Source of the DNA: an uncultured Draconibacterium sp.
GTDB taxonomy: Bacteria; Bacteroidota; Bacteroidia; Bacteroidales; Prolixibacteraceae
DNA: 64,000 nucleotides
NCBI RefSeq assembly: GCF_913060805.1
Contig: NZ_CAJXTC010000009.1
Coordinates: 62,001 to 126,000 of the forward strand
Direction of reading: 5' to 3'
Positions 22,124-61,734 of this stretch are shown piece after piece; within the stretch, counting starts at the first letter, position 1, and the number at the start of each line of letters is the position of its first letter. The notes below the pieces were generated by a model. The model worked only from the letters and a program-made list of their open reading frames with translations, was not told the DNA's origin and did no database searches. Position numbers and translations under genes: made by a program.

Positions 22124-23344
22124 TCAAAATCCCTTTGGCGAAGGGAAACTCTCGCGCACATGCTCCGATCGTTCTCCAAAGTGCTGCCGGATATATCTGT
22201 AGGTTGAAGTAATATCGGTATGCCCCAGCTGGTTCATTAGTTCAACAATGGTTGCTCCACTCTCCAAGAGTTTGCCGGCTCCGGTATGTTTAAACGAGTA
22301 CCACTTGTAACTTTTCGACAGATCAAGATCATCCCGGAAACTATTGAACCGGTTCCGGAGCGTATTGGTTCCGATCTGCCGGTTGCCTGGTCTTCCAAAC
22401 GGACCAATCAAAAACATTTCTTTTCCATACGTATGAATTCCATGTTGCTGCAGCACCTCAAAAAGTTGGGTAGGGATGTCGATCACACGCTCTTTGCGTT
22501 TTTTTGCAATGTTTTTTGGGATTAAAATTGTCCGGGCTCCAAAGTTAATGTGCTTCACCTGCAGGTTTAATAATTCGTTGCCCGGGCGAACAAAACAAAA
22601 GTACTGCAGCAGTGCAGCCAAAAACAATTGCGGATCTTGTTCGCGCATCATCGGCAGGATCTTTTCCATATCATCATCAAGAAAAGGCATCGCCGAAAAA
22701 TCTTCATCCGTTTCCGGAATATCAATATCGTGCACCGGGTTTTCAATAAGCACATTTCGGATAATCAGGAATTTAAAAAACTTGTGCAGTGTCATTCTGT
22801 ATTTTTCAACAGTCCGCCTGGCCAGCTGCCGGTCGTTAATCAGGTATGCAAAAAAACGGATGATAACATCGTTATCGAATGTGGTAAGATCATTATCCAC
22901 AAGTTTCTCAAGCTCAAGCCACGCTGTAAACTCTCTGATCTTGCCTCGGTAGCTCTCATAAGTCTTTTTTGCCGATATACCTTTTATGTGCGAAATGTAT
23001 TCCGACCCGTAGAAACGTATGTTTTTATTGGCTTTCCGTTTGCGACCGTAAACCCGGGCGGCTTCGTGGTATTCCAGCTCATCCTCGTAAACTACCTGGT
23101 TCTTTATATCGTCGAGAGGAGTCCAGCCTTTGTTAAGCTTTGCGGTGTAGATCCTTATCAGCTCTTCGGCTTTCGCGTACCGGGCCTTTTTCGTTTTCAG
23201 CAGAGACAAGTCTTCCTGATAACGCTTGCGTTTCATTTTCCCGTCCTTCGGATCTCTGTATCCCAATTCAATCCACCACGATTTCGCGATGTCGCCACCG
23301 GCATCGTACAGGTAAGGAGTTCTAAAAAGTTTTTTCCTTCTCAT
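22124..23344 (-). CDS. Phage tyrosine recombinase (integrase)
   Basis: 406 residues. An N-terminal arm-binding-type region and a SAM-like core-binding domain (to about 210) precede the catalytic domain. Box I is FVRPGNELLNL with the first catalytic Arg, the basic hairpin is IPKNIAKKRKERV, and the C-terminal block is LGHTDITSTYRYI, whose last Tyr is the nucleophile. Box II reads WYSFKHTGAG, with Tyr and Lys in the positions of the usual His and Arg; this YSFKHT variant recurs in Bacteroidota integrases. The gene lies 130 bases downstream of ssrA in the same direction, as expected for an integrase acting on an attachment site at the tmRNA 3' end. Confidence 0.93.
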   Translation of the reverse strand: MRRKKLFRTPYLYDAGGDIAKSWWIELGYRDPKDGKMKRKRYQEDLSLLKTKKARYAKAEELIRIYTAKLNKGWTPLDDIKNQVVYEDELEYHEAARVYGRKRKANKNIRFYGSEYISHIKGISAKKTYESYRGKIREFTAWLELEKLVDNDLTTFDNDVIIRFFAYLINDRQLARRTVEKYRMTLHKFFKFLIIRNVLIENPVHDIDIPETDEDFSAMPFLDDDMEKILPMMREQDPQLFLAALLQYFCFVRPGNELLNLQVKHINFGARTILIPKNIAKKRKERVIDIPTQLFEVLQQHGIHTYGKEMFLIGPFGRPGNRQIGTNTLRNRFNSFRDDLDLSKSYKWYSFKHTGAGKLLESGATIVELMNQLGHTDITSTYRYIRQHFGERSEHVRESFPSPKGF

Positions 23345-23474
23345 ATCCGTTAAAATTTCGCGTTCCCCAACGTGAAAAAATTAACCGACAATCGATGAAA
23401 TACACGCTTTATTTACACTGACATACACTTAATGTGTGTAACTAACTGTATATCAAATGTGTTGTAAAACATAG

Positions 23475-23510
23475 TGGAGCTGGCGGGAGTCGAACCCGCG
23501 TCCAAACGAG
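23475..23510 (-). other. Inferred phage attachment site (tmRNA 3' end)
   Basis: This is the acceptor and T-arm segment of ssrA (contains GGAGCTGGCGGGAGTCGAAC read on the plus strand). ssrA 3' ends are classic integration targets, and the integrase is adjacent. The exact core length cannot be set because the partner copy lies outside the window. Confidence 0.55.
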
Positions 23511-23744
23511 GAAGCTACAAGCTTTCTACATGTTTATCTCTGACTTAATTTTCGAATAGCAGCCGGATCAAAGCCACCAACTACTACCTTATCTCTTTTA
23601 ATTTCGCAAAAACGCCAGAGCCTCATTTATGCTAGCTTCGATTTATTTGCACCGCCTGATCGGACCGCTTCAAAGCATTAGCATCCGGGCGATGTCTCGT
23701 CCTGGCACCTTGTGCCGGGATTAAGTATAACCTACTTGATTCGG

Positions 23745-23774
23745 TTACGCAGCAAGAGCGTAATTATTTTCGCC
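23745..23774 (-). other. tmRNA tag reading frame (GENNYALAA)
   Basis: GGC GAA AAT AAT TAC GCT CTT GCT GCG TAA on the minus strand. The hydrophobic ALAA end is the ClpXP-type degradation signal. Confidence 0.92.
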
Positions 23775-24002
23775 AATTATGGTTTTGATCATTATTTTTT
23801 ACGGGTCAACAACCAAAACCCGACATGCTTACCTGTCTCTTCTACCCGCTGTCAAAACCAGTCAGCCCCATAGAAGTTGTATTTGTCTTAAATACAGAAC
23901 GTTCGGATTGGCCTTGTTTAAATATGGCAACAAACCTTCTTGTTTATTGCACAAACAATGTGCCTAATCCGCTGCAAATATATTGATTCTGCTTAAATTC
24001 TT

Positions 24003-27857: not shown

Positions 27858-28724
27858 CTAAAGTTGTCGGGCAAACTCTTTTATCCAGCTTTTTAATGTT
27901 TCGCTAATTTCCGGATCTTTCAAGCCAAACTCGAGGTTGGTTTTCAGGAAACCCATTTTATCGCCAATGTCGTATCGTTTTCCGTCGAATTTTAAGCCAA
28001 ACATCGGATGTTCTTTTACCATATCGCGCATGGCATCGGTCAACTGAATTTCGTTGTTTTTACCGGGAGTGGTGCTTTCCAGGTAGTCGAAAATCTCGGG
28101 TGTAAAAATATATCGGCTGGCAATCGCCAGGTTCGATGGCGCCTCTTCCTGCGATGGTTTCTCGATCCATCCGTTTGCTTTGTAAACATCGTCGGAAATA
28201 GGTGTCCCGTCAAGAATCCCATAGCGGCTTACCATTTCCGGCTCCACTTCTTCCATGGCAACAACTGAGCCTCCGTGTTCATTGTACACATCAATCAGTT
28301 GTCTGGTAATCGGGCCTTTTCCCTGAACGAGTGTGTCGCCCAAAAGAACGGCAAAAGGTTCGTTGCCCACGTGGTATTTTGCATGAAGTATCGCATCGCC
28401 CAAACCATTCATTTCTTTTTGCCAAACAAAATGAATGTTGGCCAGGTTGGAAATGCCTTTTAGTTTTTCCAGCATTTCGTAGTTGCCTTTTCTTTCCAAC
28501 GATTCTTCAATAATCGGATTCCGGTCGAAATGTTCTTCAATGGCGCGTTTCCCTTTTCCTATGATCATTAGAATATCGGTTATCCCGCTGGCAACCGCTT
28601 CTTCAACAACATATTGAATAACGGGTGTGTCGATAATCGGGATCATTTCTTTAGGCTGCGATTTAGTGGCCGGCAAAAAACGGGTTCCGTAACCTGCTGC
28701 CGGTATAACTGCTTTTTTAATCAT
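27858..28724 (-). CDS. galU: UTP-glucose-1-phosphate uridylyltransferase
   Basis: 288 residues, normal for bacterial GalU. The nucleotide-binding loop is IPAAGYGTRFLPATKSQPKEM (residues 7 onward), followed by VVEEAVASGI and the acidic metal site in VLLGDTL; the C-terminal DIGDKMGFLKTNLEF motif is conserved. It makes UDP-glucose from glucose-1-phosphate and UTP. Its start is three bases downstream of the GHMP kinase stop, so the two are one operon, and GalU-type enzymes can also accept glucuronate-1-phosphate. A GCCCGACA / TGTCGGGC hairpin overlaps its stop codon. Confidence 0.93.
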   Translation of the reverse strand: MIKKAVIPAAGYGTRFLPATKSQPKEMIPIIDTPVIQYVVEEAVASGITDILMIIGKGKRAIEEHFDRNPIIEESLERKGNYEMLEKLKGISNLANIHFVWQKEMNGLGDAILHAKYHVGNEPFAVLLGDTLVQGKGPITRQLIDVYNEHGGSVVAMEEVEPEMVSRYGILDGTPISDDVYKANGWIEKPSQEEAPSNLAIASRYIFTPEIFDYLESTTPGKNNEIQLTDAMRDMVKEHPMFGLKFDGKRYDIGDKMGFLKTNLEFGLKDPEISETLKSWIKEFARQL

Positions 28725-28727
28725 GTT

Positions 28728-29729
28728 CTAATTGTTTACGATATTGGGTTTAATCACTTCAATTCCTTTTCTGCTCAGGGTGTTGTGCAGGTTGTTAAAC
28801 ATTGTTCTGTCGGTGTAAGTGCCAATAATAGCTCCTCCCGATCCGGTGAATTTTGCACTGGCACCAACCGATCGGGCCAATTCTACCATTTCAATATTTC
28901 CTTTCGAGATATTGATTGTTTTTCGTCGCAGATCGAAATTCTCGTCTATAAGATCGTGCATGCTTTGGTAGTCGTTGTTGCCCAAAGCCACTTTAAAATC
29001 TTCGGTAATTTGTCCCCAGCGCAACATGGCTTGCAACACTTTTGGGTCACCAATTTCAAAGCGTGCTTTCAGGTTGTTGTGCACCACTTCGGTTCCTTCC
29101 GAAAGATTTTTACGATAGGCAATATAAAAGTGGGGGAAGTTTTTTACATCCAGTTCCTGATATTCGCCGTAACCACGACTTTCCATCAGGTCGCGGTCAA
29201 AATCCATACAAACCGGACATTCGTAGGCTTGCGCCACACGATCCTGCAAACCCGCAGCAATTCCCAATTCTTCCGTTTCAACGGCAAGAACAAGATTGGC
29301 AAAAACGGGTTTCGGAATTTTCACTTCGTAGAACATGCACAGTGCACGTAAACATGCTGTAATGATTGCACTCGAACCAGCCAATCCCAAACGAAACGGG
29401 ATGTTCGATTTATAACGAATGGTAAAATTCCGGTCGTCGATTTTTATGTTGTTTGACTTACAGTACTCATAAAAAATCTTGATCATTGCCTTCAGTAAAC
29501 GCATTCCTCCGTAGTATCCGGCAAGGTTTACGTCTTCAACCAATTCCTGTATGCTGTTGAAATTTGTACCATCTAAACGTTCAGGTAAAATCTGTAGCTC
29601 GGGTGTTTCGTAAAGCTGCACACGCGCCTCGAAATTGGAAAACAAAAAGGCAATTGTTTTTCCGAAATAGCCGTCGGAAGGATTACCAATTACTGCGGCT
29701 CTGGGGTATGAATATGTTTCGAAAATCAT
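28728..29729 (-). CDS. GHMP kinase, plant-glucuronokinase-like
   Basis: 333 residues. The N-terminal motif VIGNPSDGYFGKTIAFLFSN (residues 13-32) is close to the opening of plant glucuronokinases (GNPSDVYFGRT type). The GHMP ATP-binding loop is LGLAGSSAI (115-122) and the C-terminal glycine motif is KFTGSGGAIIG (near 290). GHMP kinases phosphorylate sugars or small alcohols; this subgroup makes glucuronate-1-phosphate. With galU directly downstream, the pair could salvage free glucuronate to UDP-glucuronate without oxidising UDP-glucose. Substrate is inferred from similarity and context. Another sugar-1-kinase activity remains possible. Confidence 0.8.
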   Translation of the reverse strand: MIFETYSYPRAAVIGNPSDGYFGKTIAFLFSNFEARVQLYETPELQILPERLDGTNFNSIQELVEDVNLAGYYGGMRLLKAMIKIFYEYCKSNNIKIDDRNFTIRYKSNIPFRLGLAGSSAIITACLRALCMFYEVKIPKPVFANLVLAVETEELGIAAGLQDRVAQAYECPVCMDFDRDLMESRGYGEYQELDVKNFPHFYIAYRKNLSEGTEVVHNNLKARFEIGDPKVLQAMLRWGQITEDFKVALGNNDYQSMHDLIDENFDLRRKTINISKGNIEMVELARSVGASAKFTGSGGAIIGTYTDRTMFNNLHNTLSRKGIEVIKPNIVNN

Positions 29730-29777
29730 TCCGGTTATTTTTAGCAGGTAAAACTAATATTTTTTTATTCTTTGGCG

Positions 29778-29830
29778 AATATGATTTCTCGATGTGTAAA
29801 ATGATCCTTGAAAGGTGGGATGTTATTTGA
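29778..29830 (+). pseudogene. Relic of the 3' end of a sulfatase gene
   Basis: The plus strand encodes EYDFSMCKMILERWDVI followed by TGA. The intact sulfatase at 59690-61567 ends with NYDFSMCKMILEKWDVI and a stop. A run of 32 identical bases is shared (29780-29811 with 61517-61548). Sequence upstream of 29775 is unrelated to the sulfatase and overlaps the start region of the divergent GHMP kinase gene. It is therefore a remnant left by deletion or rearrangement. Confidence 0.8.
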
Positions 29831-29842
29831 TGAACCAGATAC

Positions 29843-29887
29843 AAAAATTCCCGACAAACTTTGCCAGGAATTTTTTTGTATAATGGG
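29843..29887 (+). terminator. Terminator downstream of the sulfatase relic
   Basis: Arms AAAAATTCC and GGAATTTTT with a 25-base loop and T7 tail. It probably was the terminator of the lost sulfatase and now sits 14 bases from the convergent PepSY-type gene end. Confidence 0.65.
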
Positions 29888-29901: not shown

Positions 29902-30408
29902 TTAAATCAGCACAATAATTACAGCAAATACCAACCCGGCAATGGCCACAATCACTCCTTTTCGTAATACTTTATTGGTTTTGGTATACATGAAAAATGC
30001 CGAAACCGAGAAGAACAGCAATGAAATACCAAAGAAAATATTCAGAAAGTACAAGGGCGAATTGGTAGTTGCTTTATGCAGTCTTTCCAGCTTCTGCAAA
30101 ACAAAAGGAAGCTCTTTTACCGTGTAAGTTGCAACACCCGTTGTTTTGTCGTACGACCCTTGCGCAAATGTTATCGTGTTGGCATCTTCTTCCAAAACCT
30201 GCAGATTTCGTATAAAAAGTTTACCACCCAACTCCTCTGCCGGAACGTTTGCTCCAATCTCTCTCTCTGTAATTTTATCTTGTTTCAGAAAATCCGTTGT
30301 GCGGAAAATCATAATTGTGCCGCTTAGGGCATAAATTGTCATAATTCCGGCAAGGAAAAATCCAAGATACCGATGATAAACTCTAAACGTTTTGCTAATC
30401 TTGCTCAT
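29902..30408 (-). CDS. PepSY-associated membrane protein
   Basis: 168 residues. An N-terminal span (RYLGFFLAGIMTIYALSGTIMIF) with the HRYLGF motif of the PepSY-associated TM family, a periplasmic domain of about 85 residues (KLFIRNLQVLEEDANTITF ...), then two more spans at the C-terminus (FFGISLLFFSVSAFFMY and IVAIAGLVFAVIIVL). PepSY-TM proteins occur with iron uptake and membrane reductases. It is the last gene of the row that starts with the DUF5916 gene, separated from the previous gene by 111 bases, so it may be expressed separately. Confidence 0.7.
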   Translation of the reverse strand: MSKISKTFRVYHRYLGFFLAGIMTIYALSGTIMIFRTTDFLKQDKITEREIGANVPAEELGGKLFIRNLQVLEEDANTITFAQGSYDKTTGVATYTVKELPFVLQKLERLHKATTNSPLYFLNIFFGISLLFFSVSAFFMYTKTNKVLRKGVIVAIAGLVFAVIIVLI

Positions 30409-45354: not shown

Positions 45355-48300
45355 TTACAATTTTAGAAGGCATATTTGTGCCGTTCGTAGGTTTGTTTTA
45401 ATTTTTATGAAATACACCCCGGTTGAGAGAAATGATACGTCGAAATAAGAAGCCGTTGCTGCTTGCTCATTTAGTAGCATTTTGCCGGTAGCCCCAAATA
45501 CCAAAATCTCGTCAATAAATTCGTTTTGAATTAATTGCACCGTAAAACCTTTGTTTATGGGATTGGGATAAACCAGAATTTCGTCGACATCTTCGTACTC
45601 CGAAACCGCATTCACGTTTTCAACCGTAATCAGCATCGTATCCGAAGAATAACAAGAGGTTTCATTTGAAACTTTTACCCAAATCGGATGGATGCCCAAA
45701 CCAAGTTCGCTGGCAACAATGGTGAGATTGGCTTCGGTTGTTCCATCGCACCAAAGAACCGAACAGTTCAGGTTGGGAATTTGAAGTGATATCGAATCTT
45801 CAATTCCCAAAACCTGATCAGGACCAAGATCGACTTCTAATTTTTCGTACACGACAACCAGAAATTCTGTTTCACCAATACATTCGTTTTCTGTAACCGT
45901 GTAAGTTAAAGTGTGTGTTCCGGCTCCTGCAACCGACGGATCAAAATATAGATCAGTAACGCCGGCTCCGGAAAGAACTCCGCTTTCTGGAACTGCTTCT
46001 ATTAAAACGGGCTGCTGGTCTTCGCAAAGCGAAAGGTTGTAATTCAGTATTTCAGGATGGATCACCGAATCCACAATTACCTGAAATTCGATTTCACCAG
46101 TGCAGTCGTTTTCAGTTACGGTGTAAGTTAAAGTGTGTGTGCCCGGTCCTGCAACTGAAGGATCAAAGTAAAGTCCTGAGACGCCTGTTCCGGAAAGTAC
46201 TCCGCCCTCGGGAACTGCTTCAATTAAAACGGGCTGCTGGTCTTCGCAAAACGAAAGGTTGTCATTCAAAATCTCAGCATGGATCATCGAATCTACAATC
46301 ACCTGAAATTCGATTTCACCAGAACATTCGTTTTCAGTTACGGAGTAAGTTAGTGTGTGTGTGCCCGGTCCGGCAGTCGACGGATCAAAATATAGATCAG
46401 AAACGCCGGCACCGAAAAGAACTCCGCCTTCGGGAATTACTTCGATCAAAATAGGTTGCTGGTCTTCGCAAAACGAAAGGTTGTCATTCAAAATTTCAGG
46501 ATGGATCACAGAATCTACAATCACCTGAAATTCAATTTCTCCTGGGCATTCGTATTCGGTTATTGCGTAAGTCAGCGTATGTATACCGGCGCCTGCGATT
46601 ACTGGATCAAAGAACAGACCTGAAACACCAGCACCGGAAAGTATTCCGCCTTCGGGAATTGCTTCGATCAAAATAGGTTGCTGGTCTTCGCAGAACGAAA
46701 GGTTGTCATTCATAATTTCAGGATGGATCACCGAATCCACAATTACCTGAAATTCGGTTTCACCGATGCAGTCGTTTTCAGTTACGGTGTAAGTTAGTGT
46801 GTGTGTTCCCGGTCCTGCAACCGACGGATAAAAATACATACCTGAAACACCTGCACCGGAAAGTAGTCCGTCTTCTGGAACTGCTTCTATTAAAACGGGG
46901 TGTTGGTCTTCGCAAAACGAAAGGTTGTCATTTAAAATTTGAGGATGGATTACCGAATCTACAATTACCTGAAATTCTATTTCACCAGTGCATTCGTTTT
47001 CGGTTACCGAGTAAGTTAAAGTGTGTGTGCCCGGTCCTGCAATTGACGGATCAAAATATAGATAAGAAACGCCGGTTCCGGAAAGTACTCCGCCTTCGGG
47101 AACTGCTTCTATTAAAACGGGTTGTTGATCTTCGCAAAACGAAAGGTTGTCATTTAAAATTTCAGGATGGATCACCGAATCCACAATAACCTGAAATTCG
47201 ATGTCGACAGTGCATTCGTTTCCCGATACGGAGTAAGTTAAAGTGTGCGTTCCCGGTCCTGCAACCGACGGATCAAAATATAGATCAGAAACACCTGGTC
47301 CGGAAAGTACTCCGCCTTCAGGAATTGTTTCAATTAAAACGGGTTGCTGATCCTCACAGAAGGAGAGATTGCTATTCAAAATCTCAGGATGGATCACGGA
47401 ATCTACAATTACTTGAAATTCTATTTCGCCAGTGCATTCGTTTTCTGTAACCGTGTAAGTTAAAGTATGCGTTCCCGGTCCTGCAACTGACGGATCAAAG
47501 TATAGATCAGAAACGCCTGCACCTGAAAGAACTCCGCCTTCGGGAATTACTTGGATCAAAATAGGTTGCTGGTCTTCGCAGAATGAAAGGTTGTTATTCA
47601 AAATTTCTGGATGAAATACAGAGTCTACAATTACCTGAAATTCGGTTTCACCAGTGCATTCGCTTTCAGTAACTGTGTAAGTTAAAGTGTGTGTGCCGGG
47701 GCCGGCAACCGACGGATCAAAATACAAACCTGAAACGCCATTTCCGGAAAGTACTCCGCCTTCTGGAACTGCCGCGATTAAAACGGGCTGTTGATCTTCG
47801 CAAAAAGATAGGTCTGAATTAAGGATTTCCGGCTGTGGCATGGAATCAACAACTACCTGAAACGTTATTTCTCCAATGCAGTTATTGTCGTCGATTACGG
47901 TGTAGCTTAAGGTGTGCGTTCCCGGCCCGGCAAGGGCGGGAGAGAAATAAAGATCAGTAACACCATCACCGGAAAGCACGCCTTCTTCTGGAAGAGCTTC
48001 GATGAGAACCGGTGACTCGTCTTCACAGAATGAAAGGTCGGCCGTAACGATTGTTGGTTGAGGATTTCCGTATATGTCGATGGTTTTTTCGAATGAATTA
48101 TTGACGCTGTTGCTGTCGAGCGCTGAAGTCAGCAGAAATTCAAATGTGTAGCTCTGTTCATTGCTTAAATCCGGATGACTGTTCATTTCATAACTCAGTT
48201 CCTCGTTTTGTAAAAGGGATGTTGAAAGCACCACAGTTTCTTCAACACTTTCGTTCGAGGTGCAAGTCATTTGAATTGTGATACTGTCGCCGGATAAAGC

Positions 48301-50928
48301 CGGATATGGCCCAAGGTTTTTGAAGGAAATACCTACCTTTTCATCGTCAGACAAAGCACAGGATGAAACCGGGTAATTCATCGCGGTTATGGTAAGGTCT
48401 GTAACACGCGGTTCTTCTTCGCCCGTAACAGAAATATTATCCAGTCCGGCGCCCATTCCCCATTGGTAAAAATCGTCGTAATAAAAGCCCAGTTGCGTAC
48501 CGTTTTTACAAATTTCCGGTGGCAGTTCTACTGTTTTATTTGTCCAGGCAACGGCCTTTTCCAGGTTAATAAATTCATGCCATTCCGTTTCTTCCTGGTT
48601 TTTGTAAACCACATGCATTTCATCAATGGCATCGTAAATTTCTGTTTTTAATAAATAATCGAATGAAAGTGTAACGTTTGAATAATTGGCAAGCAATAAC
48701 GGGGGAGTGGCAGCAATATCGGAAACGTGCACAGCTTCTCCGGCAGAGTAAGAATCAGTAGCTATAAATTTGGTGCTATTGGCTATAAAGTCGAGGTAGT
48801 AACAATTCAATGATTCGCTATCTCCCCATTGAAATCCCGAAATATTGTCCTTAATCTGCACATCATCAGCACCAACTTCGAAATCAACAATATAAGGCAA
48901 CGAACGCGCAGTTCGAGGATAAACGACAACTTTATTCGTGCCAATACTTTCGGTTTCTTCGTTGTTGATGGTGTAAACAGCTGTTACGTAATACGAGTAT
49001 TCATTATCGAAAATGATTGTTGCATCGGAATAAGCAGACGTATTACTTTCGGAAAGAAATGTGCCATTCCGGTAGATTTTGTATTTGTCAGGAACTCCCG
49101 AAACCGGAGGATCCCAGCTGAGCAAAATGGCGGATTCTCCTATCGAGTAAGTTAAGTTTTGAGGAGGATAAATTTCCGATTGTGTTTCGATTCCGGTTAC
49201 CACCAGACTAAATGCTTGCGACCCACCGGACAGTGATCCGGAATGTGAAATCTTAATGGCAAAATCATTGGCTCCGGGATTCGTAAAATACACCTGTTCC
49301 ACATTGTCAACATTATTTGAACCATGAGTAGCCGAAGTTGCCGGACTTTCAACATCGAGTACCCAGGGAAGAAAAGATTGCCCGGTAGCTGTATTTTCTA
49401 CCGTTAAATTAAGATCGTTTACCAGTTTAGCGGTTCGTTGATTTAAGGCGGGAAAGGAAGCTTGTCCGGCCGGATCTGTCCAACAAACTGTGGCTTTTAA
49501 AAATGGGGCATTGTCAGCCGTTTTTACAGGAATTGTTAGCACTTCTCCTTCACTCAATACTTCCTCGTATATATTTTTACCCTGATTGTTTGAGTTGTTG
49601 TAAATCAGATCGGCGGCAGCTTTTATATTTATCAGCCCCCAGCCAAAACTGTAATCCGGACCCGGATTGCCTAAGTCGGTGGCCGAATGCATTAAAACAC
49701 TTTTTAGCGTTGAGGACCTCAATTTTACTCCGGGCTGAAGCAGGTTTTGAAGCTGAAGCAAAAGTGCGATAGAACCTGTGGCAGCTGCTGTCGACATCGA
49801 TGTGCCGGTGTAAGTATCGTAGCTCGATATTGTTGAAGAGATGGACGAATAAACATCAACACCATCTGAAACCAGATCCGGTTTTATTCGCCCATCATCA
49901 GTTGGACCGAAGCCACTAAATACGGTCATGTTTTGGGCATCGTCAACTGCTCCAACAGTCAATATATTTTTGGCGACTGCCACCGGCGACAGACAATCGT
50001 AACCATCTTCGCCGCCGTCGGGATCGCGTTCATCGTTTACCAACACCCAGTTTTCGTCCCACACATAATGAGAGACCGCCGTTTCGGGACCATCGTTTCT
50101 GTCATTTCCGGCCGATTTTACGATGAGGTAGTAGGGGGCCAGCTTTGCTATGTAATCCAAATCGGCACTTACATCGCTGTAAAAGCCAAACTCGTAATCT
50201 TCGGTTGCCGAAATTTCGGGATCGCCGTACCAGTACCAGTTTTCGTTTTGTGCATTATAGTACCAGCCACATAAAGGCCCGTACGAATGATTGGAAATCA
50301 TTATACCATCGGCGGCAGCACTGGCCATTTCGGCAATATCATTATCTAAATCCCACCCTTTGATGAGGGCTTCTCCGGCCATTCCTTTGGCTTCGGATTT
50401 TTTCCCCATGGCGATCATTGTACCTGAAATATGTGTTGAGTGGTCGGATACCGGCAAGTTTAAATCGCGCATTGTAATTCGCGAACCATTGGGGCTTTGA
50501 AATTCCTGATGGGTAGCCAAAACCGTTCCTCCATCCCACAAGTTTATTTCAATGCCTTCGCCTGTAAGTTCGGGGTAATCGTTGCTGGCCGACCACACCT
50601 GATCGACGGAAAGAGTTGCCGCAACACTCAAATTGTCGGTGGCATAATAAACAGGTTGGTTATTATCCCCCAGGCGTTGAAGGCTAACTACGCGGCCGCT
50701 TGCTTCAACGTAAAATATGGGTATTTGTAGGCGGTTAGCAAGTGAATCGGCAATTCGCTTTTGCTCCGTCCATTTGGCATTTTTTTGCCAGGCAAACTGA
50801 TTTAATTCCAATTGATTTGATTCTGGGGGGCGGTTTTGCTGTGCCGTTAAAATGTGGGGTGTTCCAAAAAATAGGAGCAAAAGTATACATCCATTTAAAA
50901 GAAAAGCCGTGGTAAGTTTTGTATACAT
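45355..50928 (-). CDS. Type IX-secreted subtilisin with ten Ig-like repeats
   Basis: 1857 residues from the ATG at 50928 (MYTKLTTAFLLNG, clear signal peptide); the track's longer start adds 16 residues. The S8 catalytic residues are Asp in INLWDGGTV (about 132), His in SDHSTHISGT (about 166) and Ser in TGTSMSTAAATG (about 385). Then follow a proprotein-convertase-like beta domain, a fibronectin-type-III-like domain (YPPQNLTYSIGESAILLSW), a MAM-like region, and ten repeats of 74 residues. The C-terminal 80 residues (VYPNPINKGFTVQL ... STGVYFIKI) form a type A type IX sorting domain, so the protein is exported to or anchored at the surface. An acidic lipoprotein gene lies 107 bases upstream in the same direction. 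Confidence 0.92.
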   Translation of the reverse strand: MYTKLTTAFLLNGCILLLLFFGTPHILTAQQNRPPESNQLELNQFAWQKNAKWTEQKRIADSLANRLQIPIFYVEASGRVVSLQRLGDNNQPVYYATDNLSVAATLSVDQVWSASNDYPELTGEGIEINLWDGGTVLATHQEFQSPNGSRITMRDLNLPVSDHSTHISGTMIAMGKKSEAKGMAGEALIKGWDLDNDIAEMASAAADGIMISNHSYGPLCGWYYNAQNENWYWYGDPEISATEDYEFGFYSDVSADLDYIAKLAPYYLIVKSAGNDRNDGPETAVSHYVWDENWVLVNDERDPDGGEDGYDCLSPVAVAKNILTVGAVDDAQNMTVFSGFGPTDDGRIKPDLVSDGVDVYSSISSTISSYDTYTGTSMSTAAATGSIALLLQLQNLLQPGVKLRSSTLKSVLMHSATDLGNPGPDYSFGWGLINIKAAADLIYNNSNNQGKNIYEEVLSEGEVLTIPVKTADNAPFLKATVCWTDPAGQASFPALNQRTAKLVNDLNLTVENTATGQSFLPWVLDVESPATSATHGSNNVDNVEQVYFTNPGANDFAIKISHSGSLSGGSQAFSLVVTGIETQSEIYPPQNLTYSIGESAILLSWDPPVSGVPDKYKIYRNGTFLSESNTSAYSDATIIFDNEYSYYVTAVYTINNEETESIGTNKVVVYPRTARSLPYIVDFEVGADDVQIKDNISGFQWGDSESLNCYYLDFIANSTKFIATDSYSAGEAVHVSDIAATPPLLLANYSNVTLSFDYLLKTEIYDAIDEMHVVYKNQEETEWHEFINLEKAVAWTNKTVELPPEICKNGTQLGFYYDDFYQWGMGAGLDNISVTGEEEPRVTDLTITAMNYPVSSCALSDDEKVGISFKNLGPYPALSGDSITIQMTCTSNESVEETVVLSTSLLQNEELSYEMNSHPDLSNEQSYTFEFLLTSALDSNSVNNSFEKTIDIYGNPQPTIVTADLSFCEDESPVLIEALPEEGVLSGDGVTDLYFSPALAGPGTHTLSYTVIDDNNCIGEITFQVVVDSMPQPEILNSDLSFCEDQQPVLIAAVPEGGVLSGNGVSGLYFDPSVAGPGTHTLTYTVTESECTGETEFQVIVDSVFHPEILNNNLSFCEDQQPILIQVIPEGGVLSGAGVSDLYFDPSVAGPGTHTLTYTVTENECTGEIEFQVIVDSVIHPEILNSNLSFCEDQQPVLIETIPEGGVLSGPGVSDLYFDPSVAGPGTHTLTYSVSGNECTVDIEFQVIVDSVIHPEILNDNLSFCEDQQPVLIEAVPEGGVLSGTGVSYLYFDPSIAGPGTHTLTYSVTENECTGEIEFQVIVDSVIHPQILNDNLSFCEDQHPVLIEAVPEDGLLSGAGVSGMYFYPSVAGPGTHTLTYTVTENDCIGETEFQVIVDSVIHPEIMNDNLSFCEDQQPILIEAIPEGGILSGAGVSGLFFDPVIAGAGIHTLTYAITEYECPGEIEFQVIVDSVIHPEILNDNLSFCEDQQPILIEVIPEGGVLFGAGVSDLYFDPSTAGPGTHTLTYSVTENECSGEIEFQVIVDSMIHAEILNDNLSFCEDQQPVLIEAVPEGGVLSGTGVSGLYFDPSVAGPGTHTLTYTVTENDCTGEIEFQVIVDSVIHPEILNYNLSLCEDQQPVLIEAVPESGVLSGAGVTDLYFDPSVAGAGTHTLTYTVTENECIGETEFLVVVYEKLEVDLGPDQVLGIEDSISLQIPNLNCSVLWCDGTTEANLTIVASELGLGIHPIWVKVSNETSCYSSDTMLITVENVNAVSEYEDVDEILVYPNPINKGFTVQLIQNEFIDEILVFGATGKMLLNEQAATASYFDVSFLSTGVYFIKIKTNLRTAQICLLKL
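45840..48055 (-). repeat. Ten tandem 222-bp repeats inside the subtilisin gene
   Basis: Each unit encodes about 74 residues with the pattern NLSFCEDQQPVLIE ... GVLSGAGVSDLYFDPS ... GPGTHTLTYTVTENECTGE ... FQVIVDS. Two cysteines occur in every unit (FCED and the Asn-x-Cys position), suggesting one disulfide each. Units are about 85-95% alike by eye at the DNA level. The pattern is an Ig-like module common in Bacteroidota surface proteins. Confidence 0.9.
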
Positions 50929-51035
50929 ATTGCCGGATTTTAGAGAACCATCTGCCAGGGATAGGCAGATGGTCACTCTTCAGATTACTACACGGGAAAA
51001 TTTTGATAAACCCACAATTGCCTGGTGATTATATT

Positions 51036-54152: not shown

Positions 54153-54911
54153 ATAATTGTTCTAAAAAAGAGTGAATCATACACTGGAAAAACCGAATCC
54201 ATTAATCACACCAATCCCTGATTTTTAAATCAAGTCGTACAGTTATTCACTAATCACGGGCACACAAATGCACATTATAAGCATTGGTATTATAACGCCT
54301 TATGTCATGCTTATCAAAGTATGACGTACAGTTTCTCCTGCGATTAGTGACTCCGATTTTTGGTGGTAAGGTGGTTCGATTTTTCCACAGGTATTACTAC
54401 GGAAGAAATAGCGGTTTTGTTGCGATACAGAAGGCGAGATTAAAAAAAGGAGGCACTGCGGCTTCTTCTTTGTCTTCTGTGTCGTCATCAACAATGGGGA
54501 TGTAAGGTCGCACGCCAAAAACAAGATTGAAAATAGGAGGGGCCCAGTAAGATCAAACTTATTTTCTGCTTCATTGTCCTGTGTTGTGAATAAAATTTGT
54601 TGTTGTGTTTAATACACGAGTGGGAAGGATTACCCTAGCGGATATTATAATAATATTGCAGTTGGAATCACCCATTTTGCCGAAGTATATATTGGCACGC
54701 ACGTAAGTGGAATTTACATCAAGGACGAACGCATTCCTCAACAGGTTTTTATTGCAGGGCGGGGGTGATGGAATCCAAATTTCGGATTACAGGACAAATT
54801 TGGTTACGGCTTGTTTATTTTTACTTAAAAAATTACACCAATTAGCTTTACAACAGATTAAAACTATTATCTTTTGCTTCGTTTGGATAAACTTGAACCT
54901 AATTTAAAAAT
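54153..54911. other. 759-base stretch without a convincing gene; possible coding relic
   Basis: No ORF has a plausible start, signal and composition. The segment at about 54613-54768 reads YPSGYYNNIAVGITHF... in one frame up to a TGA, with protein-like codon use but no start codon and a stop just before, so it may be a decayed gene end. The stretch at 54300-54540 has two weak opposite ORFs considered shadows. Promoters for the reverse sigma gene and the forward gene at 54912 should lie here but were not resolved. Confidence 0.35.
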
Positions 54912-56453
54912 ATGAAACCTAAACTTTTATTCTACGCGGCAACAGTTTCCATGTTTTTATTTGCTTGCACAAGTACCCATAAAGAAGAAAGGCAAGAACA
55001 ATCCAAACCACGTGTTATAGTTACCTGCGACCCCGAATTGGATGACAATAATTCTCTGATTCGCTTTTTACTTTTTAGTACCGACTTCGACGTTGAAGGA
55101 CTGATTTATGCAAGTAGCCGGTTTCATTGGAAAGGTGACGGAAAAGGAACTACTCAGTATATTCCCGACAGAGAATATTCTTCTGAAGAACGGGATCTGG
55201 GACCACAAACTTCGTGGCGTTGGGCAGAAGGCGAGCGTTTTATTGATGATCTGGTTGAAGCTTACGAATCTGTTTATCCGAATCTAAAAGTTCATAATCC
55301 AGATTATCCAACGCCTGAGGAATTGAAGTCAAAGATTTACGTGGGCAATGTTGAGTTTGAAGGCGACATTTCTCATGACACTCCCGGTTCCGACAGGATA
55401 AAAGAAATTCTGCTTGACGATGATCCGAGACCTGTTTTTATCCAGGTTTGGGGTGGCCCGAGTACTGCTTCGAGAGCACTAAAGTCGATTGAGGAAGAAT
55501 ATAAAGACACTCCCGAGTGGGAAAGTATTAAAGCAAAGGTTTCAGCAAAGGCAAAATTTTGTCTTTCCGGGATGCAGGACTTATCTTACCAGGAATATGT
55601 GCAACCCAACTGGACGGAGGTTGAATCTATTATACTTAATGCTGGAGTTACAAGTTTGGGCTATGGAGCAAAGCGTGCAGTTGCCGGTACTAAAGATACC
55701 ATCTATTTTTCTTCGGAATGGACCATGGAAAATGTCAAAAGTAAAGGTGTTTTTGGAGAACATTACCGTGTGTGGGGCGATGGCCGGCAAATGGCTAAAG
55801 GCGATTTTACCGACTACTTTGGCGAAAAAGGATACACAGCTGACGAACTTCGCGAAAAGGGGTACTGGGTTTGGACACCACCTCAGCCCGAAGGTAGTTT
55901 TATTAGCGAAGGAGATACGCCAATGTTCCTGAATCTGATTGCAAATGGATTACGAGCGCACGAAGGGCAGGAGTATGGAGGATGGGCCGGACGCCGAAAA
56001 GAACTTTCGGAAGAAGAGAAAGCTGCCGGCTATACTGCTCCGTATGCAATGAGAAGAGTAAAGGATGAAGTACTTCCTGATTTCTTGCCGGCCATACAAA
56101 ATAGCTTCGCAGCGCGTTTAATCTGGTCGGTTACTTCTGAGTATGACGATGCAAACCACGAGCCGGTTATTGAAGGACCGCTAGAAATGTCGGCAGCTGC
56201 GGGCAGCACCGTTAATCTTGAATTCGAGGTATCTGATCCCGATAAGGATCCGGTTTCCACAAACTGGATGCAATTCAAAGTAGGCAGCTACAAGGGCGAT
56301 GTTTCCTTTGCTAGTCCTACATCTGCATCCACTTCTATTGTAGTGCCCCAGGATGCTGAGCCCGGACAGACCATTCACCTCATACTTCAGGCCGAAGACA
56401 AGGGCGAACCGGTTTTAACGCACTATCACCGGCTAATTATAACTGTAATTTAA
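54912..56453 (+). CDS. Sde182-type nucleoside-hydrolase-fold lipoprotein (DUF1593)
   Basis: 513 residues. Lipobox FAC (Cys19). Residues 33-320 are the Sde182-type nucleoside-hydrolase-like domain (VIVTCDPELDDNNSLIRFL, the metal Asp cluster; GNVEFEGDISHDTPGSDRI; VFIQVWGGPSTASRAL). The C-terminal 90 residues form an Ig-like domain with EPVIEGPLEMSAAAGSTVNL. Sde182 from Saccharophagus was described as cellulose-binding; catalytic activity is not established. It heads a row with a paralogue and two sulfatases, so an activity on glycan-derived material is inferred. Confidence 0.85.
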   Translation: MKPKLLFYAATVSMFLFACTSTHKEERQEQSKPRVIVTCDPELDDNNSLIRFLLFSTDFDVEGLIYASSRFHWKGDGKGTTQYIPDREYSSEERDLGPQTSWRWAEGERFIDDLVEAYESVYPNLKVHNPDYPTPEELKSKIYVGNVEFEGDISHDTPGSDRIKEILLDDDPRPVFIQVWGGPSTASRALKSIEEEYKDTPEWESIKAKVSAKAKFCLSGMQDLSYQEYVQPNWTEVESIILNAGVTSLGYGAKRAVAGTKDTIYFSSEWTMENVKSKGVFGEHYRVWGDGRQMAKGDFTDYFGEKGYTADELREKGYWVWTPPQPEGSFISEGDTPMFLNLIANGLRAHEGQEYGGWAGRRKELSEEEKAAGYTAPYAMRRVKDEVLPDFLPAIQNSFAARLIWSVTSEYDDANHEPVIEGPLEMSAAAGSTVNLEFEVSDPDKDPVSTNWMQFKVGSYKGDVSFASPTSASTSIVVPQDAEPGQTIHLILQAEDKGEPVLTHYHRLIITVI

Positions 56454-56492
56454 GCAGAACATATTAATATCAACCTGATTTAAACTTATACA

Positions 56493-58082
56493 ATGAAAAA
56501 AACACTATTTACAATTTTAACTCCGGTATTGGCAACATTTTTATTCGTTTCGTGCGGGCAGTCGCCTGCAACTAAAGCAACCTTAGCACCGGAAGATCTG
56601 GCCGAAAAAGTTGACAAAAGCCAGCAGGAAAGAATATTGATTACCACCGATCTGGAAGTGGATGATATGAACGGTTTGCTTTTAAGTTTGATGTACGCCG
56701 ATCATTATGATCTTGCCGGAATTGTTTGGACAGCAGGTATGTATCATTTTCAGGGCGACCACGGCGAACATACATTGGGCGAGATTACTCCAAATTACCG
56801 CTGCAGTGCTCAACATTGCGAGCACCGTGTGGAGTCGGCCGCCGATCTCACGGAGTATCGTCCGGTTGACCCGACATGGCTCGACCGTATTTTGGATTAT
56901 TACGAAACCGATTATCAGTTGATGAGCAAGAATAATCCGAATTTCCCGACACCTGAGCAATTGAGGAGCATTACCAAAGTAGGTAACATCGAATTCGAAG
57001 GCGATTACCGCTTTGAAACCGATGGCTCTAAATTTATCGAGGAATGTATTATGGACGATGATATGCGTCCGCTGTACATTCAGCATTGGGGCGGAATTAA
57101 CACCACGGTACGTGCGCTGTACTCTATTTACGAGAAGTACCACGGCACACCGGAATGGGAGCAGGTGCTTGCAAAAGTAACGGCTAAGGTCCGTATTGGT
57201 GGCGATGGCGAAGACAATTGCCGTGCCGACAGTAAAATAGACGAGATGTTCCCCGGCCTGCAGAATGGTGGCTACGGTGGAGGTTTCTTTAATTATGGTT
57301 CCTTTTTTGCGTCGAGCTACAACTCTCCGATGCGCGCCGATGATGAACTTCAGCCGTATCTACATGCCGATTTCATCCTTGATGCCTACAAAGAGGACCA
57401 CGGAAAGCTTTGTGAGGAGATTTGGCTGTATGGCGAAGGCCGTGCTATTTATGGCGAACCGATTATTTACAATTACGGCCTGATAACTTATATGGATTGG
57501 GCGAAATCGGCTGAACTGGGCTGGGGGCCTGCAAACCTTGCAGATTTTCCGCGTGTTGATTTCAAACCGTACGACTGGAGCATCTGCCAGTTTGGTTGTG
57601 CCTCTTTCATCAATATCGGACTTCGTTCGGATGTTACCAACAGCAGTCGCCAATTCTTAGGGCCAACACCTGAAGGTTTCAAAAAAAGCAACCATTACAC
57701 CATCGTAATGTGGGAAGAACTGGCAGCACGTGCCGACTGGGCGATCTGCGAACCACAGGACTGTAACCATGCTCCGATAGTAACAGCCGACGAATTGGAT
57801 TTCACTGCTGCTCCGGGAGAAACGGTTTCGCTTTCGGGTAATGCGAAAGATCCTGACGGAGACCAGTTGGTGGCAAAATGGTGGGTTCCTGCTTTCTCGT
57901 GCACCTACATGGAAGGCAAAGCAGAAGGACTGGCTGTTTCTTCTGAAACCGGTTGGAACACTGAATTTACCATTCCTGCCGACGCAAAAACGGGCGACAA
58001 ATTCATTGTGAACCTTGAAGTGAAAGATGACGCTACCCGTCCGATGACGCGTTTTGCTCAGTATGTAATTACTGTTTCGTAA
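56493..58082 (+). CDS. Second Sde182-type nucleoside-hydrolase-fold lipoprotein
   Basis: 529 residues. Lipobox VSC (Cys21). Same fold as the preceding gene: LITTDLEVDDMNGLLLSLMY at the metal site, GNIEFEGDYRFETDGSKFI, LYIQHWGGINTTVRALYSI, and a C-terminal Ig-like domain (NHAPIVTADELDFTAAPGE). The two differ strongly in the middle, so they are old paralogues with possibly different substrates. It starts 40 bases after the first gene and is followed by a sulfatase 30 bases downstream. Confidence 0.85.
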   Translation: MKKTLFTILTPVLATFLFVSCGQSPATKATLAPEDLAEKVDKSQQERILITTDLEVDDMNGLLLSLMYADHYDLAGIVWTAGMYHFQGDHGEHTLGEITPNYRCSAQHCEHRVESAADLTEYRPVDPTWLDRILDYYETDYQLMSKNNPNFPTPEQLRSITKVGNIEFEGDYRFETDGSKFIEECIMDDDMRPLYIQHWGGINTTVRALYSIYEKYHGTPEWEQVLAKVTAKVRIGGDGEDNCRADSKIDEMFPGLQNGGYGGGFFNYGSFFASSYNSPMRADDELQPYLHADFILDAYKEDHGKLCEEIWLYGEGRAIYGEPIIYNYGLITYMDWAKSAELGWGPANLADFPRVDFKPYDWSICQFGCASFINIGLRSDVTNSSRQFLGPTPEGFKKSNHYTIVMWEELAARADWAICEPQDCNHAPIVTADELDFTAAPGETVSLSGNAKDPDGDQLVAKWWVPAFSCTYMEGKAEGLAVSSETGWNTEFTIPADAKTGDKFIVNLEVKDDATRPMTRFAQYVITVS

Positions 58083-58112
58083 ATCCCATTGGAAAAACAA
58101 AACCTTACAACA

Positions 58113-59606
58113 ATGATAAAAATAATCAGCATATTTTGTGTGTTGCTCGGGCTTAGCCTGGCAAGCTATGCTCAGGAAAAACCAATGAACGTGCTTTTCA
58201 TCGCCACCGATGATATGAGCAACGATTTGAATACTTTTGGGAATCCGGATGTGTACACACCCAATATGGACCGTTTGGCCGAAAGGGGAGTCGTGTTTCA
58301 AAATGCCTATTGCCAGGCGCCGCTATGTGGGCCCAGTCGTGCATCGTTAATGACCGGTTATTACCCGGATAAGACCGGTGTTTTTGACCTTGGTCCACGA
58401 TTTCGCGAGAAGTTGCCTGATGCCGTAACCATGGCTCAACTATTCAAGAATAACGGCTATTTTACCTGCCGAATTGGTAAAATATTTCATCAGGGAGTTC
58501 CCGGTGATATTGGTCATGCAGGGCACGATGATCCGGCTTCGTGGACAACCACTTACAATCCGATTGGTAAAGATAAAACCGATGAATATAAACTACAGGG
58601 TGGTGATGCCGTGATGTTGGGAACTTACCTTGCCATGGATTGTAACGACGATGAGGTAACCGATGCGATTTCGGCAAATGTGGCTTTAAGTATTTTGCGC
58701 CAGCGTACCGGCAATCAGATGATAAGTGCATATGGAAGTTACAATGCCGGTCGTGTAAGTCCTGAGCCATTTTTTATGGCGCTTGGATTTTACCGCCCGC
58801 ATATTCCGTATATGGCGCCAAAGAAATATTTCGACATGTATCCGCTGGAGAAGATAAAGTTGCATGAAAATCCTGAAAACGACTGGGAGAATAAACCGCA
58901 TGCGGCAGCCTGGGTTTGGCCACCAAATGCCGGAGCAACAGAAGAGCAGCAGAAGAAAGCAATTCAGGCTTATTATGCATCTATTTCGTTTGTTGATGCA
59001 CAAGTTGGAAAATTGCTCGACGGGCTGCAAGAGTTTGATTTGCTTGATAATACGATCATTGTTTTTTGGAGCGATCATGGTTACCAGTTGGGAGAACACG
59101 GACAATGGCAAAAACAGACTTTATTTGAAAAAGGATCTAATCAGCCATTATTGATTTCTGTGCCGGGAGTGACCTCGGGAACAAGAACCGAAGCCATTGT
59201 TCAATTGGTTGATCTTTATCCAACACTGGCCGAACTTGCAGGTTTGGAGCCTCCAAAAGATTTGGTGGGCCACAGTTTGGTGCCACTTCTGAAAGATCCG
59301 GATGCAGAGTGGGATCACCCGGCTTTTACCATTCAGGCGAGAACCGTAAATCCAAGAGCGCAGGAAGGACAATCGAAATATAGTTTTAATCCGAATCTGG
59401 CATCAGAAAATCCAACCATCTTCGGACGTACCATTCGCGTAAAAAAATACCGTTATACAGAATGGGATGAAGGTCGTTTGGGAGCTGAATTGTATGATTA
59501 TGAAAATGATCCGAAAGAGTTTAATAACTTGGCTAACGATCCGAAATACAAGGATATTATTGATGAACTGGCAGAGATTCTGCACCGGGATTTTAGCGCG
59601 GAGTAG
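58113..59606 (+). CDS. Exported sulfatase, iduronate-2-sulfatase-like (S1)
   Basis: 497 residues from the ATG at 58113 (IKIISIFCVLLGLSLASYAQ signal peptide); the track's TTG start adds eight residues. The formylglycine motif is LCGPSRASLMTGYYPDKTG with the Cys to be matured by an anaerobic or aerobic sulfatase-maturing enzyme not in view. Metal residues are in FIATDDMSNDL and FWSDHGYQLGEHGQW. Overall pattern fits the iduronate-2-sulfatase-like subfamily, which removes 2-O-sulfates from uronic acids in glycosaminoglycans or algal glycans. Substrate is not proved. Confidence 0.9.
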   Translation: MIKIISIFCVLLGLSLASYAQEKPMNVLFIATDDMSNDLNTFGNPDVYTPNMDRLAERGVVFQNAYCQAPLCGPSRASLMTGYYPDKTGVFDLGPRFREKLPDAVTMAQLFKNNGYFTCRIGKIFHQGVPGDIGHAGHDDPASWTTTYNPIGKDKTDEYKLQGGDAVMLGTYLAMDCNDDEVTDAISANVALSILRQRTGNQMISAYGSYNAGRVSPEPFFMALGFYRPHIPYMAPKKYFDMYPLEKIKLHENPENDWENKPHAAAWVWPPNAGATEEQQKKAIQAYYASISFVDAQVGKLLDGLQEFDLLDNTIIVFWSDHGYQLGEHGQWQKQTLFEKGSNQPLLISVPGVTSGTRTEAIVQLVDLYPTLAELAGLEPPKDLVGHSLVPLLKDPDAEWDHPAFTIQARTVNPRAQEGQSKYSFNPNLASENPTIFGRTIRVKKYRYTEWDEGRLGAELYDYENDPKEFNNLANDPKYKDIIDELAEILHRDFSAE

Positions 59607-59689
59607 CACATTTTAGTATTTTTACTGAATTGCGGTTTCTATTGGAACCGTGATATTTGCAATTGATTTTTAATCTAAACTAAACCAAA

Positions 59690-61567
59690 ATGCTAAAACT
59701 GAATGAGATAAAGATCAGTCGGTTAGTTTTATTATTTACGCTGTTCCTGAGTGTGCAAGTTAGAGGGCAGCAAGACCGGCCTAATATTTTATGGATCACC
59801 AGCGAGGATAACAGTCCGTATTTAGGCTGTTACGGCGATGCTTTTGCAACAACGCCAACCCTCGATAAACTGGCCTCTGACGGATTTCGCTACACCAATG
59901 CTTATGCTAACTGCCCGGTTTGTTCGCCTGCACGAAATACGATTATTACCGGTGTTTATGCCGCATCGAACGGGAACGAGCAAATGCGAAGTACTTATCC
60001 GAAATCGGAGTCGGTTATTCCTTATCCCGAGCTATTGCGAAAAGCCGGTTATTACTGCACTAACAATGTAAAAACCGATTACAATTTTGCAGGAGATTAC
60101 AACAGTATGTGGGATGAATGCAGCAATACTGCACATTGGAAAAACAGTCCGGAAGGGAAACCATTCTTCGCCATATTCAATTTGATGACGACGCACGAAA
60201 GTCAGCTTTTTCCTTTTACACCTGATGCGGAATTAAGGCACAAACCGGAAGATGTGATTTTGCCGCCGCAGCATCCTGATACTAAGGAAATGCGCCACGA
60301 TTGGGCGCAGTATTACGACAAAATAGAGGATATGGATGCGCAGGTTGGCGATTTGTTAAAAGAGCTGGAAGAAAGCGGGCTGGCTGACAATACCATCGTT
60401 TTTTATTATGCCGATCACGGTGGAGTGCTGGCGCGCAGTAAACGTTATATTTTCGAAACCGGAACGTGGGTGCCGTTTATCGTTCGTATTCCTGAAAAAT
60501 ACAAACAATATTTTCCTGCAGAGAAACCGGGCGATGCCGTTGATCGCAACATAAGTTTTGTAGATCTTGCTCCAACTTTGCTAAGTATAATCGGAGCTGA
60601 AAAACCGGACTACATGCAGGGCAACGCTTTTCTTGGGAATGCGGTTGAACCGGAGCCGGAATACATTCATATGACCCGCAGCCGCATGGACGAGCGTATT
60701 GACATGAGCCGTGCCGTGCGGGATAAAAAGTATCGTTACATCCGCAACTACATGCCTTTTCGTATTTATTTGCAGCACCTGGCGTACTTGTTCAATGCCC
60801 GTTCTGCACAATCGTGGGAAGATTATTACCTGGCTGGGAAATGTAACGATTTGCAAAGTATTGCTTTTCAAACCAAACCGGTGGAAGAACTTTACGATAC
60901 CGAGAACGATCCTAACGAACTTTATAATCTTGCTGATGATCCGGCTTATAAAGAGGTGTTGGAGCGCATGCGAAAAGAGAATATTCGATGGATGAAAGAA
61001 ATCAGGGATGTGGCTTTGATTCCGGAAACTGAATACACGAAAAGGGCAGGAGGCGGATCGATGTACGATTACATGCGGTCGGAGGCTTGTCCGTTTGATG
61101 AATTATTGGCCGCAGCAGAACTGGCAACTCAGCCGGGTAACGGAGCGATTTCTGAATACATTGAATTGCTTAAAAACGAAGATTCAGCATTACGTTACTG
61201 GGGAGTTACTGGCTTGCTTATTCACGTTGAGAATGCCCAATCGGCATTGCCGGTGTTAAAAGCACTGTCAGGTGAAGATGCAACAGCAACAGCCGTTTTA
61301 ATTGGCGAAACCTTGTATCGTTTAGGAGAAAAAGAACTGGCAGAAAAGATATTCCTACGCATTTTGAGTGACGAAAATAGTACAATGCATGAGCGAAACT
61401 GGGTATTGAACAGTGTTGACGCGATTGACTCCAGAACTGCGGCAATTGAAAAATGGATAAAAGACTTTTACGATCGCAAGAGCGGGGAGCTAAAAGGATG
61501 GGATATTTACAGCAACTATGATTTCTCGATGTGTAAAATGATCCTTGAGAAATGGGATGTGATTTAA
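59690..61567 (+). CDS. Exported sulfatase, heparan-N-sulfatase-like, with C-terminal extension
   Basis: 625 residues. Signal peptide (LVLLFTLFLSVQVRGQ). The formylglycine motif is CPVCSPARNTIITG; metal-site segments are LWITSEDNSPYLGCYG and FYYADHGGVLARSK. The core resembles sulfohydrolases of the SGSH-like group. After about residue 480 a helical extension (LRYWGVTGLLIHVENAQSALPVLKAL) resembles HEAT-type repeats. The last 17 residues (NYDFSMCKMILEKWDVI) recur as a relic at 29778-29830. It ends 66 bases before a terminator. Confidence 0.9.
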   Translation: MLKLNEIKISRLVLLFTLFLSVQVRGQQDRPNILWITSEDNSPYLGCYGDAFATTPTLDKLASDGFRYTNAYANCPVCSPARNTIITGVYAASNGNEQMRSTYPKSESVIPYPELLRKAGYYCTNNVKTDYNFAGDYNSMWDECSNTAHWKNSPEGKPFFAIFNLMTTHESQLFPFTPDAELRHKPEDVILPPQHPDTKEMRHDWAQYYDKIEDMDAQVGDLLKELEESGLADNTIVFYYADHGGVLARSKRYIFETGTWVPFIVRIPEKYKQYFPAEKPGDAVDRNISFVDLAPTLLSIIGAEKPDYMQGNAFLGNAVEPEPEYIHMTRSRMDERIDMSRAVRDKKYRYIRNYMPFRIYLQHLAYLFNARSAQSWEDYYLAGKCNDLQSIAFQTKPVEELYDTENDPNELYNLADDPAYKEVLERMRKENIRWMKEIRDVALIPETEYTKRAGGGSMYDYMRSEACPFDELLAAAELATQPGNGAISEYIELLKNEDSALRYWGVTGLLIHVENAQSALPVLKALSGEDATATAVLIGETLYRLGEKELAEKIFLRILSDENSTMHERNWVLNSVDAIDSRTAAIEKWIKDFYDRKSGELKGWDIYSNYDFSMCKMILEKWDVI

Positions 61568-61633
61568 AATACTGCAGAAGGATTCTTCTTCTGATTTTTC
61601 TATAGTTAGTTTGGTTAGGGATGTAAATCCCAG

Positions 61634-61667
61634 AATTTCCGGCATGAATTGTCGGGAATTTTTATTT
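61634..61667 (+). terminator. Terminator after the sulfatase row
   Basis: AATTTCCGGCA / TGTCGGGAATT, 11 bp with two G-U pairs, five-base loop, then TTTATTT. Confidence 0.75.
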
Positions 61668-61734
61668 AAGCATTAAACCTTCGCCATTGACGATGGTAGT
61701 GTATGTTTTGCTACGCATTTTATAACTGTGCCTT

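Follow-up and report, generated by a model that had tools for sequence, protein, structure and literature searches.

A short in-frame sulfatase tail lies between two intact genes in the genome of an uncultured Draconibacterium sp., and the questions it raises are which gene it belonged to and how the remainder disappeared. The stretch analysed (hereafter the window) comprises 64,000 nucleotides of contig NZ_CAJXTC010000009.1, and also contains an intact sulfatase gene, 32 kb away. An earlier reading made from the sequence alone had taken the tail to be the relic of a second sulfatase, the product of gene loss or of a rearrangement linking two carbohydrate regions, and had seen in the bases identical to the intact gene a recent event or gene conversion.

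The relic and its surroundings

The relic consists of 51 bases, TATGATTTCTCGATGTGTAAAATGATCCTTGAAAGGTGGGATGTTATTTGA, translated as YDFSMCKMILERWDVI*, i.e. 16 sense codons and a stop (Table 1). It is situated between a GHMP-family sugar kinase gene and a PepSY-TM-like gene, both on the minus strand, and the ORF that holds it (29564-29830, with a TTG start) is antisense to the kinase gene. Being limited to the C-terminal 16 codons, it has no sulfatase catalytic domain and no C-x-P-x-R motif; judging from these codons, the functional protein is gone, and no useful product is left in the stub.

The end of the intact 625-aa sulfatase gene matches the relic at 46 of 51 bases, including 32 consecutive identical ones (29780-29811, corresponding to 61517-61548). 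When the relic was used as a blastn query against its own 5.48 Mb assembly, this gene was the only second match (92% over 49 bp, E = 3.8e-13), and the similarity is therefore far beyond chance. The in-frame tail, its stop codon and the 32 shared bases are thus real, as the sequence-only reading had it. The interval it gave, 29774-29887, does include the end of the sulfatase and a hairpin, but its first six bases (29774-29779) are upstream flank of the kinase gene, and the sulfatase part starts only at 29780.

The kinase, which scored below every NCBIfam cut-off, is followed downstream by galU (27858-28724). Elsewhere in the window, positions 1-23869 carry prophage-like genes and then a tyrosine-type integrase (22124-23344) next to a tmRNA gene (23474-23869). 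Such a tmRNA gene is a well-known target of integration, and one of the relatives described below, G007, shares the integrase-tmRNA stretch at 87%. On the minus strand, 45355-50976 encodes a 1873-aa subtilase-like secreted protein with about ten tandem repeats of ~74 aa (222 bp), and repeat-offset matches to its gene were found in three other genomes (G002, G009 and G051).

Table 1. Coordinates of the features discussed, in window positions.
Feature	Position	Strand	Evidence
Intact GHMP-family sugar kinase gene, left neighbour of the scar	28728..29729	-	PF00288; G007 orthologue 97% aa
Retained upstream flank of the kinase gene, ending at the deletion join	29730..29779	.	Collinear with G007 (to 904393) and G052 (to 4927531)
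Relic, last 16 sense codons and stop of a syntenic sulfatase gene, very probably deleted	29780..29830	+	Differences from the G052, own-copy and G007 genes
Terminator hairpin	29839..29880	-	Bidirectional in G052; in the window it is chiefly the PepSY-TM minus-strand transcript that gives a stable fold
Intact PepSY-associated TM protein gene, right neighbour	29902..30408	-	PF03929, weak, under the curated cut-off; next to a full sulfatase gene in both G007 and G052
Displaced block: two DUF1593 (Sde182-like) genes, sulfatase 1, sulfatase 2 and its 3'UTR	54895..61668	+	86% to G007
Intact S1-type sulfatase gene, paralogous or displaced copy	59690..61567	+	PF00884; ~75-85% DNA identity to orthologues
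Probable conversion tract, 3' ~190 bp of the lost gene's type	61355..61550	+	86-91% identity to G052/G013b

The locus in related genomes

Two genomes of the same genus, G007 and G052, are about equally close to the window (90.6% and 89.9% DNA identity, respectively, over galU-kinase). In G052, a complete orthologue of 626 aa (4933667-4935547; hereafter sulfatase 2) is found between the same kinase and the same PepSY-TM gene. The 8.0 kb separating the two genes contain, in order from galU-kinase, a DUF1593 gene, small genes, one other sulfatase gene and sulfatase 2, followed by PepSY-TM. The order in G007 is galU-kinase, two DUF1593 genes, a 10.7-kb segment, sulfatase 1, sulfatase 2 and PepSY-TM; the segment encodes an ECF-type sigma factor, FecR-like, SusC-like and SusD-like proteins and two further sulfatases, names that were read off the translations without family profiles. 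In both genomes the full sulfatase 2 ends exactly at the end point of the relic, and the search for a full sulfatase beside the kinase gene, which had been suggested as a check, was therefore successful twice.

The similarity to G052 does not stop with the coding sequence. Window positions 29780-29883 are 87.5% identical over 104 bp to the 3' end of the G052 sulfatase gene and its terminator, and the alignment runs through the stop codon and terminator into the collinear PepSY flank, with the original orientation kept. On the other side, collinearity of the kinase flank with G007 and G052 extends as far as 29780, past which both relatives carry sequence unlike that of the window. The join (GGCGAA/TATGAT) shows at most 1 bp of microhomology (0-1 bp). 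The deletion would begin 51 bp ahead of the kinase start and end 17 codons short of the sulfatase stop, so that the window lacks what corresponds to 4927531-4935494 of G052 (8.0 kb) or 904393-886893 of G007 (17.5 kb). Because the whole orthologue stands at the same spot in G052, and a full sulfatase gene ends there in G007, the relic is best regarded as a deletion scar, and the earlier claim of gene loss is borne out.

In three other genomes (G005, G009 and G002), sulfatase 2 directly precedes an arabinosyltransferase-like gene, which in the window is located at 41.6-43.2 kb. G024 and G051 are more distant; their kinase and PepSY-TM genes are adjacent, ~139 bp apart, and no match to the relic was found in the gap, which indicates that this interval gains and loses genes readily.

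Type of the lost gene

Counted on its 48 sense bases, the relic shows three differences from the G052 gene, four from the window's own intact copy, and five, seven and eight from the genes of G013b, G005 and G007, respectively. With the stop codon included, five of 51 bases differ from the own copy. The longest run shared with the G052 gene is 38 consecutive bases, more than the 32 shared with the copy in its own genome. In addition, the intact copy and the G007 gene are followed by a different 3'UTR of ~65 bp (CTATAGTTAGTTTGGTTAGG...), which is absent behind the relic and which is no dispersed repeat, since it occurred once per genome stretch examined. The fewest differences, the 38-base run and the shared stop and terminator flank identify the relic as the end of a G052-like gene (type B), an assignment made on 51 coding bases that rests on about five sites and the 3' flank. 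It should be noted that G007, marginally the closest relative, has a type-A 3' end at the kinase-PepSY locus, so that the ancestral state was possibly A or both.

Two inferences drawn from the 32 shared bases could not be upheld. The run by itself is no sign of a recent event, since G052, which is another species, shares 38 bases, and runs of 26-47 bases are routine among intact orthologues of the sulfatase from other species. Nor is there support for the intact gene as the one from which the relic was cut: it was rejected as a direct source, the same-locus gene of G052 and its terminator-bearing 3' flank fitting better.

The intact sulfatase and its block

The intact gene encodes a member of the PF00884 superfamily (127.6 bits, against a gathering cut-off of 25), whose formylglycine-type motif, CSPAR, is present and whose best solved relative is the S1_8C sulfatase 9bba (E = 4e-86). 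It closes a block whose gene content and order are those of the G007 kinase-PepSY interval minus the 10.7-kb Sus segment; at 58082-58092, where G007 has these 10.7 kb, the second DUF1593 gene almost abuts sulfatase 1. In G009, which lacks the block, the sequences flanking it stand 198 bp apart.

These correspondences bring in another origin for the relic, namely that the cluster at 54.9-61.7 kb moved 25 kb out of a G007-like kinase-PepSY interval and left its last codons behind, the relic and the intact sulfatase being then the same gene twice. In its favour, it is precisely the kinase-PepSY interval of G007 that holds the same set (two DUF1593 genes, sulfatase 1 and sulfatase 2), the 86% identity of the window block to that set is about equal to that of the vertically inherited flanks, and G009 shows the place of the block without it. 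However, the intact copy has its whole 3' end, and plain cut-and-paste cannot leave a tail twice, so that a copying step would be needed; moreover, the 3'UTR common to the intact copy and G007 is missing from the relic, whose stop region and terminator resemble those of G052 instead. We consider this origin unlikely.

Far less credible is that the end of the intact gene was copied to this site and added there as a small insertion or duplication, which the 32 identical bases might recall: the sequence downstream of the intact gene differs from that behind the relic, and in the relatives a whole gene occupies the very same site, its similarity in G052 continuing into the PepSY flank. An assembly artefact (chimeric join or collapsed repeat), to which the abrupt join might point and which the sequence-only reading had named as a refutation, is just as improbable, given that the relic is no copy of any other sequence in the genome (five of 51 bases differ from its only other match), that both flanks are collinear with the relatives to the base on a contig extending ~90 kb each way, and that the 99.5%-complete assembly contains no orphan or detached sulfatase body.

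The preferred reading, a deletion at the kinase-PepSY-TM locus, also agrees with searches for the missing part. The body of the lost gene was not found elsewhere in the assembly, where the only match was the intact copy (83%), and the stretch of G052 corresponding to the deletion, compared with the whole Draconibacterium genome, matched the intact copy, the DUF1593 gene of the block and scattered unrelated pieces, with no second sulfatase 2 body.

Some further observations concern the block and its gene family. Behind the intact sulfatase, a conserved 3'UTR element, CTATAGTTAGTTTGGTTAGGGATGTAAATCCC (61600-61632, plus strand), is nearly identical in G007 and recognizable in G013, despite a coding end only ~80% alike; it is possibly regulatory or structural. 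A second gene relic of ~29 codons (ITHFAEVYIGTHVSGIYIKDERIPQQVFIA; 54661-54749, plus strand), which corresponds to a part close to the C-terminus of an esterase-like alpha/beta hydrolase, sits on the left edge of the block. The esterase gene is intact in G009 (L159), and matching DNA is present in G002, G005 and G013. These 89 bp, which recur across genomes, were considered as a mobile element at the block edge, and rejected, being the tail of the esterase gene with no repeat element or tRNA. Finally, G013 has a second, frameshifted sulfatase copy (L059, C1:3006133-3008006), ~92% identical to the G052 gene, away from the kinase locus.

A mosaic 3' end

The intact sulfatase gene is mostly 77-89% identical along its length to the type-B genes of G052 and G013b. 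Its last ~200 bp, where variability is otherwise highest, are 86-91% identical to these two and at most 81% to all the others. A maximum chi-squared test gave 44.7, with a switch near nt 1666 of the CDS; informative sites are of type B in 45 of 47 cases to the right of the break and in 54 of 137 to the left. The accompanying shuffle test for mosaicism is anticonservative (control queries, with weaker scores of 17.5, 16.7 and 13.4 against 44.7, reached p ~0.001 too), and its p-values are indicative only. The type-B tract covers approximately nt 1666-1861 of the CDS, and type A is seen again at 1862, at 1877 and in the 3'UTR.

The relic and the intact copy are identical at 32 of 32 bases up to the end of the tract and at 14 of 19 after it (Fisher p = 0.005), the overlap between tract and relic being confined to the last 32 bases of the tract; the rest of the presumed donor is deleted. 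The mosaic tail suggests gene conversion from type B into type A before type B was deleted; we infer the direction, the donor and the timing from the sequences. The earlier mention of gene conversion is thus plausible in view of the last ~190 bp, but not the recency that had been read into the 32 bases.

The terminator behind the stub

In G052, the hairpin lies between the converging sulfatase and PepSY-TM genes and pairs perfectly whichever strand is transcribed (about -30 and -29.3 kcal/mol). The window hairpin folds as RNA with -17.9 kcal/mol on the minus strand and -10.2 kcal/mol, with a degenerate structure, on the plus strand, where it is weaker because two changes that give G-U pairs on the minus strand give C-A mismatches on the plus. 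One further pair has changed on both sides with pairing kept (a compensatory change). Three rows of the four-sequence terminator alignment are informative, the G012 row being misaligned. A simple consensus terminator scan of the hairpin region gave nothing on either strand, nor did the promoter and terminator consensus scans in general, and RNA folding was more informative.

Few as the changes are, their pattern is suggestive of continued use by the PepSY-TM operon only, and the terminator behind the stub probably still ends transcription of this operon on the minus strand. This may explain why the deletion ended before reaching it. It is a much bolder conjecture, and one we hold to be doubtful, that the stub persists because the once-shared convergent terminator is still needed by the surviving gene, the hairpin having drifted so as to pair only in the RNA of that gene.

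Discussion

In our opinion, the relic is very probably the 3' stub of the sulfatase gene once resident between kinase and PepSY-TM, removed by one large deletion. Starting from the homology, the synteny, the deletion join and the mosaic tail, the order of events might be reconstructed as follows. A syntenic type-B sulfatase, as in G052, would have occupied the kinase-PepSY-TM locus, and a second, related type-A sulfatase would have been present in a separate block, now at 54.9-61.7 kb. Some 190 bp at the 3' end of A would then have been overwritten from B by gene conversion, and B, redundant by then, would have been lost by deletion except for 16 codons, the stop and the terminator.

Neither the literature on PUL rearrangement nor that on the genus contained anything specific to this locus. 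In Salmonella, the youngest pseudogenes are rapidly removed by deletional processes (Kuo and Ochman, 2010; PMC2916853). The present case resembles these in that a gene was inactivated and largely erased by deletion, leaving a short remnant; it differs in that most of a gene cluster went in a single large deletion, in that 17 codons are left together with a terminator that may still be used, and in the species and pathway involved.

Gene conversion between paralogues is a known process. Here too, a tract of ~190 bp with sharp edges in one paralogue has the sequence type of the other; a difference is that the presumed donor has since been deleted, and survives in no more than the tract and the stub. 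As for the S1 family sulfatases of Bacteroidota, of which 9bba is a solved example, the intact paralogue is like them in its PF00884 superfamily membership and CSPAR motif, while the relic retains none of the catalytic domain.

The relic is a well-resolved but ordinary instance of a gene lost from a region for carbohydrate use, in a Draconibacterium-type bacterium. It teaches that a short stretch identical to a paralogue is not to be taken as a sign of a recent event, and the locus keeps the probable trace of a conversion whose donor is now deleted. If the conjecture on the shared terminator were true, strand-asymmetric decay of convergent terminators would allow gene losses to be read from the sequence, and could be tested over many genomes.
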